Of a stretch of DNA of 64,000 nt, positions 22,783 to 62,190 are shown in pieces. A program made the position numbers and the translations under genes. Source of the DNA: Methylobacterium sp. (lineage in GTDB: Bacteria; Pseudomonadota; Alphaproteobacteria; Rhizobiales; Beijerinckiaceae). The stretch's first letter is position 1. Each line of letters opens with the position of its first letter. The notes beneath the pieces are model-generated. The model saw only the letters and a program-made list of their open reading frames with translations. It was not told the origin of the DNA and ran no database searches. The stretch covers positions 19,526-83,525 of the forward strand of contig PNLY01000013.1 of NCBI GenBank assembly GCA_013823325.1. Direction: 5' to 3'.

Positions 22783-22900
22783 CCTTCTCCCCTCGGGGGA
22801 GAAGGTCCGGCAGGGGATGAGGGCGGTTCGACCAGGTGAGCCACTCTTCCCTCATCCGTCAGCGCTTCGCGCTGCCACCTTCTCCCCCGAGGGGAGAAGG
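22783..22900. repeat. Dispersed palindromic repeat, copy 2
   Basis: The same element as at 1734-1868. Perfect outer 13-bp arms CCTTCTCCCCTCG (22783-22795) and complement (22888-22900), and inner GGATGAGGG (22815-22823) with CCCTCATCC (22849-22857). It fills the gap between the convergent NicO and DUF6454 genes, so it may end transcription from both sides. Confidence 0.9.
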
Positions 22901-59013: not shown

Positions 59014-59454
59014 ATGACCGATACCGCGACACGCCAGCAATGGATGGCAGTGCTGGCCCGTGCGACCCGAGGCGAGATCGACGCCTTGCTACAGCAGGCG
59101 GGACCGCTTCCGACGCATGAAGTGCTGAAGGCGCCCGAGACCGGCACCGTCATGGTCGAGGGCCGCGCTGGCGGCGCCGGCCGCCGCTTCAATCTCGGCG
59201 AGGCCACGGTGACGCGCTGCGTCGTCCGCCTCGACAGCGGCGCGATGGGCTTCTCCTACGCACTCGGTCGCGACGGCCGCAAGGCGAGGTTGGCAGCGAT
59301 CACCGACGCGCTTCTCCAAAGCGAGATCGAGACCGGTCCGCTGCGGCGCGGCGTCTTCGCCCTGGCGCAGCAGCAGCAGGCCGCCCGCGAACTCGCCTCG
59401 CGCAAGGCGGCTGCCACCAAAGTCGATTTCTTCACGCTGGTCAGGGGCGGCTGA
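59014..59454 (+). CDS. phnG: C-P lyase complex subunit PhnG
   Basis: A 146-residue subunit of the carbon-phosphorus lyase core complex. Recognised by TRQQWMAVLARATRGEI at the start, TGTVMVEGRAGGAGRRFNLGE in the middle (quoted in part) and a C-terminal helix rich in Gln/Ala. With PhnH, PhnI and PhnL it couples phosphonate to ATP in place of adenine. First gene after the PhnF operators; its stop overlaps phnH. Confidence 0.94.
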   Translation: MTDTATRQQWMAVLARATRGEIDALLQQAGPLPTHEVLKAPETGTVMVEGRAGGAGRRFNLGEATVTRCVVRLDSGAMGFSYALGRDGRKARLAAITDALLQSEIETGPLRRGVFALAQQQQAARELASRKAAATKVDFFTLVRGG

Positions 59455-60059
59455 TGACTCCCAACGACACCCTCATCGGCGCCGGCTTCGCCGACCCGGT
59501 CTTCCAGTCGCAAGGTGCGTTTCGCGCCCTGCTGGCGGCGCTATCCGAGCCGGGCCTCGCTTACGACATCAGCGTTTCGGTCGAGACGCCTGTCGGACTT
59601 GAACCCGCGACTGCCGTCGCGCTGCTGACGCTTGCCGACTACGAAACGCCGATCTGGCTGCCGGCTGCCCTCCGCGACGGCCCGGCCGGTGCCTGGCTGC
59701 GCTTCCATTGCGGCGCCACCCTCGTCGAGTATCCCGCCCGCGCCGCCTTCGCGGTGATCGATGGTGCTGGGACCGAGCCGAAGCTCGCCGCCTTCAACGC
59801 CGGCGACGACCAGTTCCCGGATCGCTCGACCACGGTGCTGGTCCAGTGTGCCGGGCTCGAAGGTGGCGCGACCGTTACGCTCGAAGGTCCCGGCATTCCC
59901 GGCCAGCGCGCCGTCGCTCCAGCCGGCTTGCGTCCGGAATTCTGGGCCGAGGTCGAGGACAACGCCGCGCTCTACCCGCTCGGTGTCGATCTCCTGCTGG
60001 TCCATGGCGCGCAGGTGCTCGGCCTGCCGCGCTCGACGCAAATCGTGGAGGCCCGCTGA
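59454..60059 (+). CDS. phnH: C-P lyase complex subunit PhnH
   Basis: A 201-residue subunit with the usual opening (GFADPVFQSQGAFRALLAAL) and the block LTLADYETPIWL; the C-terminal half has ERVG-like strands ending VDLLLVHGAQVLGLPRST. It joins the PhnG/I/J core and is related to PLP-transferase folds without the lysine. The ATG shares one base with the phnG stop. Confidence 0.94.
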   Translation: MTPNDTLIGAGFADPVFQSQGAFRALLAALSEPGLAYDISVSVETPVGLEPATAVALLTLADYETPIWLPAALRDGPAGAWLRFHCGATLVEYPARAAFAVIDGAGTEPKLAAFNAGDDQFPDRSTTVLVQCAGLEGGATVTLEGPGIPGQRAVAPAGLRPEFWAEVEDNAALYPLGVDLLLVHGAQVLGLPRSTQIVEAR

Positions 60060-60082: not shown

Positions 60083-61267
60083 ATGTATGTCGCGGTCAAG
60101 GGCGGCGAAGCCGCCATTCTCGCCACACATGATCTCGTCGCCGAGGCAAGGCGCGGCGATGAGAGCGTGCCGGAGCTCGCCGTCGCGCAGATTCGCGAGC
60201 AGATGGGCCTCGCCTGCGGGCGCGTGATGAACGAAGGCTCGCTCTACGATCCCGATCTCGCCGCGCTGGCGCTGAAGCAAGCGCAGGGCGATGCGATCGA
60301 GGCCGCCTTCCTGATGCGGGCCTATCGCACGACGCTGCCGCGCTTCGGCTCCTCCGAGCCGCTCGATACCGCGACAATGGCAATCCGCCGCCGCGTCTCC
60401 GCCACCTACAAGGACCTGCCGGGCGGCCAGGTGCTCGGCCCGACCTATGACTACACGCACCGCCTCTTCGACTTTTCGCTGATGGATTCCCCGGACGTCA
60501 TGGTCGGGCTTGACCCGACCATCTCGGGACAAGAAGGCGCCTCCCGCGCAACCGCGGCAGGCGATGCTCGGGTCAAGCCCGAGCATGACGTGAAACCCCT
60601 CGACTCCCACATGCCGCGCGTGCCCGATATCCTCGGCGCCGAAGGGCTGATGGAAGAGGAAGCCCCGCCCGAAGGCGATCCGCGTCCCTTCGATCTCACC
60701 CGCGAGCCCGTCACCTTCCCCGCCGATCGCGATGTCCGCCTGCAGGCGATGGCGCGCGGCGACGAGGGCTTCATGCTCGGCCTCGGCTATTCCGTGCAGC
60801 GCGGCTACGGCAACAGCCATCCCTTCGTTGGCGAGATCCGGGTCGGCGAGGTCGCGGTCGAATTCGTGCCGGAGGAGCTCGGCTTCGCCGTCGATCTCGG
60901 CGACATCACTTTGACCGAATGCCAGATGGTCAACCAGTTCGCCGGCTCCAAGGAGGTCCCGCCGCAGTTCACCCGCGGCTACGGGCTCTCCTTCGGCCAT
61001 AGCGAGCGCAAGGCGATGTCGATGTCGCTGGTCGATAGGGCGCTTAAATGCCGCGAACTCGGCGAAGCGGCGACCTATCCGGCGCAGCAGGACGAGTTCG
61101 TCCTCTACCACTCCGACAATGTCGAGGCGGCCGGCTTCGTCGAGCACCTGAAGCTGCCGCACTATGTCGATTTCCAGGGCGAGCTCGAACTGATCCGCCG
61201 CATCCGCAAGGAGCGCGAGAAGCGCCTTGCCGAGCAACAGGAAGCCCTGCCGGAGGCCGCGGAATGA
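60083..61267 (+). CDS. phnI: C-P lyase complex subunit PhnI with in-frame repeat
   Basis: A 394-residue nucleosidase-type subunit that swaps adenine of ATP for phosphonate. It matches E. coli PhnI (about 354 residues) from MYVAVKGGEAAILATHDL through LGPTYDYTHRLFDFSL, and from MARGDEGFMLGLGYSVQRGYG to the end. Between them, residues about 138-170 (VMVGLDPTISGQEG to RVKPEHDV) are encoded by a 97-bp palindromic repeat absent from the E. coli protein. The reading frame is kept on both sides and other motifs (PEELGFAVDLGD, FTRGYGLSFGHSERKAM) are intact, so the protein is probably functional. The ATG starts 23 bp after phnH. Confidence 0.93.
   Translation: MYVAVKGGEAAILATHDLVAEARRGDESVPELAVAQIREQMGLACGRVMNEGSLYDPDLAALALKQAQGDAIEAAFLMRAYRTTLPRFGSSEPLDTATMAIRRRVSATYKDLPGGQVLGPTYDYTHRLFDFSLMDSPDVMVGLDPTISGQEGASRATAAGDARVKPEHDVKPLDSHMPRVPDILGAEGLMEEEAPPEGDPRPFDLTREPVTFPADRDVRLQAMARGDEGFMLGLGYSVQRGYGNSHPFVGEIRVGEVAVEFVPEELGFAVDLGDITLTECQMVNQFAGSKEVPPQFTRGYGLSFGHSERKAMSMSLVDRALKCRELGEAATYPAQQDEFVLYHSDNVEAAGFVEHLKLPHYVDFQGELELIRRIRKEREKRLAEQQEALPEAAE
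60495..60591. repeat. Palindromic repeat inside phnI
   Basis: A 97-bp element with perfect ACGTCATG/CATGACGT ends. Each arm is itself a hairpin: GGTCGGG-CTTGA-CCCGACC (60502-60520) and GCTCGGG-TCAAG-CCCGAGC, and the two loops are complementary. This is a widespread intergenic repeat type of Hyphomicrobiales; here it is read through as protein. Confidence 0.9.
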
Positions 61268-62190
61268 CCGTGCACCAGAGCATCACCGACGAGACCAGGC
61301 CGGCCTACAACTACGCCTATCTCGACGAGCAGACCAAGCGGATGATCCGCCGCGCTCTGCTCAAGGCGGTCGCGATCCCGGGCTACCAGGTGCCGTTCGG
61401 CTCGCGCGAGATGCCGCTCGCCCGCGGCTGGGGCACCGGCGGCATCCAGGTCACCGCCGCGATCATCGGGCCCGACGATACGCTGAAAGTGATCGACCAG
61501 GGCGCCGACGACACCACCAACGCCGTCTCGATCCGCCGCTTCTTCGAGCGCACCGCCGATGCCCGGACGACCGAGGCGACCGACGAGGCGACGATCATCC
61601 AGACCCGCCACCGCATCCCCGAGGCGCCGCTGAAGGCCGGCCAGATCATGGTCTACCAGGTGCCGCAGCCCGAGCCGCTCAGGAAGCTCGAGCCGCGCGA
61701 GGCCGAGACGCGCAAGATGCACGCCTGGGCCGAATACGGGCTGATGCAGGTCAAGCTCTACGAGAACATCGCCCGCTTCGGCGAGGTGACGACGACCTAT
61801 GACTACCCGGTCATGGTCAATGGCCGCTATGTGATGGCGCCGTCGCCGATCCCTAAATTCGACAATCCGAAGATGCAGATGTCGCCGGCGCTGCAGCTCT
61901 TCGGCGCCGGCCGCGAGAAGCGCATTTATGCGGTGCCGCCGCACACCAGCGTGCGCAGCCTCGATTTCGACGACCATCCCTTCCGCATCCAGAGCTGGGA
62001 GCAGCCCTGTGCGCTCTGCGGCGCCGCCGATTCCTATCTCGACGAGGTGGTGATCGACGACCAGGGCGGGCGGATGTTCGTCTGCTCCGACAGCCATCAC
62101 TGCGAGACGCGGCGGGCCGACGGCCATCGCGGCGCCATGCTCGCCGATGCCTCGGCGCTGCATCTGGTCGAAGACGAGGCCAAGCCATGA
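61264..62190 (+). CDS. phnJ: C-P lyase catalytic subunit PhnJ (radical SAM)
   Basis: A 308-residue enzyme that breaks the carbon-phosphorus bond of ribosyl phosphonate phosphate. The unusual cluster motif C249-x2-C252-x21-C274-x5-C280 is intact; three Cys bind 4Fe-4S and one makes the thiyl radical step, with a conserved Gly (of the GWGTGG region) nearby. The ATG overlaps the phnI stop by 4 bp, and the stop overlaps phnK. Confidence 0.96.
   Translation: MTVHQSITDETRPAYNYAYLDEQTKRMIRRALLKAVAIPGYQVPFGSREMPLARGWGTGGIQVTAAIIGPDDTLKVIDQGADDTTNAVSIRRFFERTADARTTEATDEATIIQTRHRIPEAPLKAGQIMVYQVPQPEPLRKLEPREAETRKMHAWAEYGLMQVKLYENIARFGEVTTTYDYPVMVNGRYVMAPSPIPKFDNPKMQMSPALQLFGAGREKRIYAVPPHTSVRSLDFDDHPFRIQSWEQPCALCGAADSYLDEVVIDDQGGRMFVCSDSHHCETRRADGHRGAMLADASALHLVEDEAKP

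Follow-up and report, generated by a model that had tools for sequence, protein, structure and literature searches.

How does a palindromic repeat that mostly lies between genes come to be carried, in frame, inside an intact operon gene, and what becomes of it there? The question is raised by phnI in the window, by which we mean the whole 64,000-nt stretch of DNA analysed here, which belongs to a Bosea genome (G000; 6.03 Mb, 234 contigs, 95.5% complete). An earlier note on this DNA had described such a repeat at a variable linker of PhnI with the frame kept on both sides, had likened it to the palindromic elements of Rickettsia, and had asked whether its RNA hairpins slow translation or the encoded loop projects from the C-P lyase core.

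The phnI element (window 60496-60590) consists of two CGTC-type REP hairpins placed head to head and codes for about 32 PhnI residues in frame (Table 1). Its arms are 29 nt each (60495-60523 and 60563-60591), are 93% complementary and are separated by 39 nt. Each arm forms a perfect 9-bp hairpin on its own, and the two stems are different, making the pair a heterodimer with CGTC outermost on both sides. The left arm is followed by CTC; a CCA tail was seen by eye in one genomic subset. The arm pattern (≤3 mismatches) matched twice in the window as compared to a mean of 0.00 in 100 shuffles, and the reversed pattern matched nowhere in the genome, which ruled out a chance palindrome. A spurious ORF was ruled out by the full profile match to Pfam PhnI, in which residues 1-377 cover profile positions 1-347 of 348. 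E. coli PhnI (7z15, 4xb6) is alignable on both sides of the insert and is shorter at the linker.

Table 1. Positions of phnI, the parts of its insert and the neighbouring genes in the window.
Feature	Position	Strand	Description
Presumably phnG (from gene order)	59014..59454	+	Upstream gene of the operon
Presumably phnH (from gene order)	59454..60059	+	Ends shortly before phnI
phnI	60083..61267	+	394 aa, with in-frame insert at ~residues 138-169; ORF open; Pfam and E. coli alignment
Left CGTC REP arm	60496..60523	+	CGTC; 9-bp stem ATGGTCGGG/CCCGACCAT; loop CTTGA; coding VMVGLDPTI
Spacer separating the arms	60524..60562	+	~13 residues; variable part among Bosea species
Right CGTC REP arm, inverted	60563..60590	-	Stem ATGCTCGGG/CCCGAGCAT; coding DARVKPEHD on +
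Presumably phnJ (from gene order)	61264..62190	+	Start overlaps the phnI stop

Across G000 the same pattern identified 133 arms (61 forward, 72 reverse). CGTC stands at the start of 107 of the 109 arms that were collected, and stem positions are Watson-Crick in 964 of 981 cases, with stems of 9 bp and loops of 5 nt. Seven different stem types are fully paired among these arms; stem differences are thus compensated. According to passages of Di Nocera et al. 2013 (PMC3733652), REPs of the CGTC class have a CGTC end, a stem of 8-9 bp beginning with AT pairs, a loop of 4-5 nt and a 3-nt tail, most often CCA; they form head-to-head dimers, often heterodimers, and are mostly intergenic, some being intragenic and adding 20-30 residues. 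The phnI element shares the CGTC end, a 9-bp stem, a 5-nt loop, the head-to-head heterodimer and a dispersal mostly outside genes, and is, judged by its sequence and by what these passages give of the 2013 classification, a CGTC REP head-to-head heterodimer.

How often such elements lie inside genes was assessed on 97 distinct clusters gathered from the first 100 of the 133 arms listed and from BLAST loci (94 testable). A cluster passed when both flanks were coding in the same best-scoring frame and no stop occurred through the element; the underlying codon score was trained on 34 window ORFs and recovered nine of the 11 known in-frame copies of a second repeat family, B (6 in phnI, 5 in midA; see below). 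Among the arms listed, phnI alone passed (1/94), and 93 clusters did not. Not counted were L026 and L223, where the flanks are in a common frame but are separated by two stops and belong to neighbouring genes; L022, L219 and L223, in which a shared frame appeared among lower-ranked frames, in two of the three without a stop; and L015, L020, L021, L195, L229 and L251, whose two flanks code on the same strand but not in the same frame.

PhnI was matched in 63 of 67 Bosea genomes, the linker was read in all 63, and occupant types were assigned by eye. The REP pair (family A) occupies 16 linkers and decayed remnants of it two more (L053 and L078, frame intact), while families B, C and D occupy 11, 4 and 1, respectively, and 29 linkers carry no insert, six of these forming the deepest clade. 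Within one genus, 34 occupied linkers (two of them by remnants) thus stand against 29 empty ones, and the reading frame of PhnI is open in 63 of 63. The B occupant of L049 is half an element only, and the B copy of L077 has a fifth palindrome (E) nested in its hairpin loop. B and D are similar in layout and may be distantly related. Outside Bosea (n = 64; lengths only), the linker comprises 22-26 residues in 55 PhnI sequences and 28-52 in nine. The insert-free alleles ruled out that the segment is common to all relatives. In these respects the earlier note held: a mostly intergenic palindromic repeat, abundant elsewhere in G000 by the genome-wide arm search it had proposed, is carried in frame at a variable linker, with the ORF open and the Pfam match running across both sides. 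Its interpretation was right in part, for the in-frame REP; it missed the other families at the same site, as well as midA.

All occupant families are also dispersed repeats. Since both readings of a palindrome were counted and some searches covered the best 40 candidates per genome, the following are match numbers and not copy numbers: A, 34-60 in each of 8 further genomes; B, 9-59 in each of the seven genomes searched (7/7); C, 16-51 in each of five genomes (four carriers, one close relative) and 0 in G000; D, 26 in G014, 13 in G000 and 0 in G028; E, 23 in G049, one in G054 (the midA copy) and one weak partial match in G000. The B hairpin pattern gave 100 matches in G000 (50 per strand; reversed control 0), corresponding to about half as many places because the hairpin is near-identical when read on either strand. 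Other in-gene copies were scarce among the copies examined. One of 19 B loci in G000 is in-gene and in frame, in midA. Among 96 entries of full-length B copies (two copies in both orientations), 10 passed the in-gene test, all in phnI or midA; the ORFs of two further midA entries (L358, L364) show these to be in frame although the codon score missed them, and the other 84 did not pass. Of 62 loci from families A, B and C, 14 belong to phnI and 2 to midA, of which the score missed one; the remaining 46 did not pass, several of them sitting directly after a stop codon. The window itself holds two more type B inverted-repeat elements by hairpin sequence (1732-1870 and 22783-22900; L329 and L330), which failed the in-gene test. 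In G039 a type B copy (L265, G039:C3:397647-397790) lies between phnJ and the next operon gene and groups with the B copy in phnI of the same genome, and in G008 (C59:45332-46217) four type B matches lie close together as an array-like cluster.

The second host gene encodes a MidA-type methyltransferase (PF02636), within which G000 carries a B copy in frame (C65:15094-15238; L262, L357). An insert occupies the same loop in 6 of the 66 Bosea genomes with a match: B in G000, G039, G032, G028 and G054, the last with E nested in its B copy, and D in G014. Of 30 fetched loci, 27 had their loop sequence read; elsewhere absence is judged from a gap of at most about 30 nt between two BLAST pieces. All six carriers also have a phnI insert, with hypergeometric p values, kinship ignored, of 0.02 over 63 genomes and 0.04 over the 57 genomes outside the deepest clade. 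One midA match (G063:C22:467813-468310) contains one in-frame TAG.

Several known systems resemble the phnI element. Palindromic elements of Rickettsia, reportedly described by Ogata in 2000 and 2002, lie in frame in ordinary genes, just as the palindromic phnI element is carried in frame by a gene that is intact. REPINs, which are dispersed and mobilised by RAYT, pair two REP hairpins in inverted orientation across a spacer. The phnI element has the same build and dispersal; unlike for REPINs, no cognate RAYT was found, with 0 matches to PF01797 in G000 (95.5% complete). Six of 67 Bosea genomes have a match. RIME1 and Bru-RS of Rhizobium and Brucella are intergenic double palindromes of Rhizobiales, to which the element is likened by description only.

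The in-frame REP in phnI is a further case of a known kind. Passages of PMC3733652 place RPE-4 and RPE-6 of Rickettsia in the CGTC class, in keeping with the likeness drawn by the earlier note, and report different REPs at approximately the same recB site in Xanthomonas (X. campestris and X. oryzae); the relation of the phnI element to RPE rests on this classification, not on a comparison with RPE sequences. Rickettsia palindromic elements are found in many genes according to passages of PMC10969869 and PMC3733652, whereas in Bosea two host genes were found and nearly all other copies examined are not in-gene. Compared with the cases in those passages of PMC3733652, Bosea differs in having four families and a nested fifth at one linker in one genus, many state changes over the 63 genomes, as well as the use of another host gene by the same families. 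PMC3733652 was the closest source found in open-licence literature on Bosea palindromes, in-frame or same-site palindromes, REPINs and PhnI, and the literature so found does not extend to a linker reused by several families of repeats, alongside another gene that behaves in the same way. In-frame REPs have so far been mostly scattered cases, while the phnI linker offers 34 occupied and 29 empty natural alleles. It is a natural test bed for repeat DNA turning into protein, on which one could test how repeats enter proteins, whether they carry a cost, by what route exchange takes place, and which agent mobilises CGTC REPs; the passages of PMC3733652 state that a dedicated transposase was not found for these.

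We consider it probable that dispensable flexible linkers are repeatedly colonised by resident repeats, selection acting on the frame, and that the PhnI linker and the MidA loop are recurrent landing sites. The PhnI linker that holds the CGTC REP heterodimer would then be dispensable and is probably unstructured. Resident palindromic repeat families would enter this linker or the MidA loop, be kept if open and in frame, and later decay, vanish or give way to another family, the occupants changing by fresh insertion, interspecies allele exchange, or both. PhnI presumably tolerates the insert without gaining function, and the site is presumably reused because tolerant loops are few. Against this reading, other tolerant loops would be expected, yet only one other host gene was found.

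On a tree of the 63 phnI genes (linker removed, flanks included, 1970 columns), occupant states require 25 changes as compared to a mean of 30.4 for shuffled labels. None of 200 shuffles was as low, and the states are therefore partly clustered on the tree, which weighs against repeated colonisation. By family, there are 10 changes for 16 sequences with A, 11 for 11 with B and 4 for 4 with C; within one clade of four close relatives (support 100/100), two linkers hold C, one holds B and one is empty. The phnI linker must have been entered independently at least four times (by A, B, C and D), and five times if E entered there outside a composite. It is a real possibility, though we would not quite call it probable, that each family entered phnI just once or twice, and that short-tract homologous recombination subsequently reshuffled the linker alleles among Bosea species while conversion with dispersed copies homogenised the arms; such a history is compatible with repeated colonisation of tolerant linkers. 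All A copies but the mixed L031 (15 of 16) have the same arm combination when single changes are tolerated, with a left arm of GGTC/GGCC type and a right arm of GCTC type; among dispersed dimers about 6 of 21, counted by eye, have it. A second spacer type is common to L035 and L043 from different, distant clades. The uniform combination and the shared spacer both favour common origin or allele transfer over many insertions. B edges and C edges are similar across clades by eye. Four phnI B copies form one group in the element tree and the other seven fall together but mixed with genomic copies; these element trees are poorly resolved, and phnI copies cluster more than shuffled labels do, not as one clade. 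A signal of short-tract recombination was sought in the 30-120 nt beside the linker, where same-type pairs were not clearly more alike than the remainder of the gene would predict (15 tests of limited power, permutation p 0.048-0.834), which speaks against few insertions followed by exchange.

The right arm is without four-fold differences among the 16 A copies (0/465 pairwise), as opposed to 2800/9062 (31%) in the core before the linker and 3308/12482 (27%) after it (gap-free comparison), and its same-residue codons differ at 2.9% as opposed to a minimum of 7.9% in 312 ten-codon core windows. The left arm is less conserved (18% four-fold, 16% codon difference). Plain neutral decay is thus no explanation for the right arm, and something keeps or renews its DNA sequence; any one of selection, a recent arrival, or conversion by dispersed copies could account for this. 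This constancy counts against repeated colonisation and in favour of few insertions. It also counts for a reading that we regard as unlikely, in which a strong hairpin is selected in the phn mRNA, where it would stabilise the upstream part or pause the ribosome, the operon leaving hardly any room between genes. The 97-nt element window of G000 phnI folds at -65.4 kcal/mol, more stably than all 62 other windows of the gene (minimum -48.5, median -35.5). Occupied linkers also fold more stably than empty ones, both in mean MFE (A -70.8, B -97.2, C -58.4 and D -112.4 vs none -26.8 kcal/mol) and per nt (A -0.51, B -0.54, C -0.56 and D -0.62 vs none -0.40). An RNA role of the insert is possible. However, the hairpin is not required in the genus, given the 29 insert-free and two decayed linkers, the latter with an MFE (-29.2) near that of the class without insert; 6 of the 16 A copies have a left arm that falls short of 9 Watson-Crick pairs; and the presence of the same families in MidA makes a phn-specific role less likely. 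That the hairpins slow translation, a question raised by the earlier note, was not established, strong as the mRNA hairpin is.

The occurrence of different families at the same site, and of E nested in the B hairpin loop both in phnI (L077) and in midA (L364), could also point to a mobilising enzyme that prefers the linker sequence or an existing palindrome. We doubt such targeting. PF01797, the Y1 transposase profile, is unmatched in a genome that is 95.5% complete and seldom matched elsewhere in Bosea; the dispersed A copies of G000 have no common flanking motif visible by eye; and B plus E may have moved as one composite, since G054 has no E match besides its midA copy. RAYT mobilisation was rejected on the missing match in G000 together with the loci around Y1 genes elsewhere, since no A-D pattern (≤2 mismatches) was found in the 3.3-kb loci around those of G052 and G064. 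Among crown Bosea, Y1-type transposase genes were found only in the small clade of G052, G064, G006 and G049 (L447, L448). Type C repeats occur in G052, G064 and G006, and in the two Y1 loci examined no C repeat flanks the gene. A bolder reading makes the PhnI and MidA linkers true landing pads, at which active palindrome-directed insertion or cassette-like exchange would swap repeats without changing the codon position they occupy, and what is kept would be the hairpin rather than the peptide, as an mRNA element for a phn operon without intergenic room; this we find rather improbable.

A function of the added peptide in the C-P lyase complex appears highly improbable to us. The presence of family A in several clades speaks for it, but four different peptides of different lengths, or none, are found at the same place, and no structure was predicted for the insert. 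Two AlphaFold models (mean pLDDT 57 and 64) were too weak for mapping on the complex. In the PhnI model from 76 sequences (mean pLDDT 64.3), residues 138-168 have pLDDT <50 and no secondary structure, other stretches (e.g., 114-130) likewise being <50; weak as it is, the model agrees with a flexible insert. The projection of the loop from the C-P lyase core, also raised by the earlier note, was not established by this model, and the available passages of the C-P lyase cryo-EM paper (PMC9947105) do not discuss the PhnI linker. Among the PhnI sequences compared, one from a record titled Mycobacterium sp. (L117, NZ_VCCH02000045.1) is of the alphaproteobacterial type, with 67-69% identity to the query, and is possibly misnamed.
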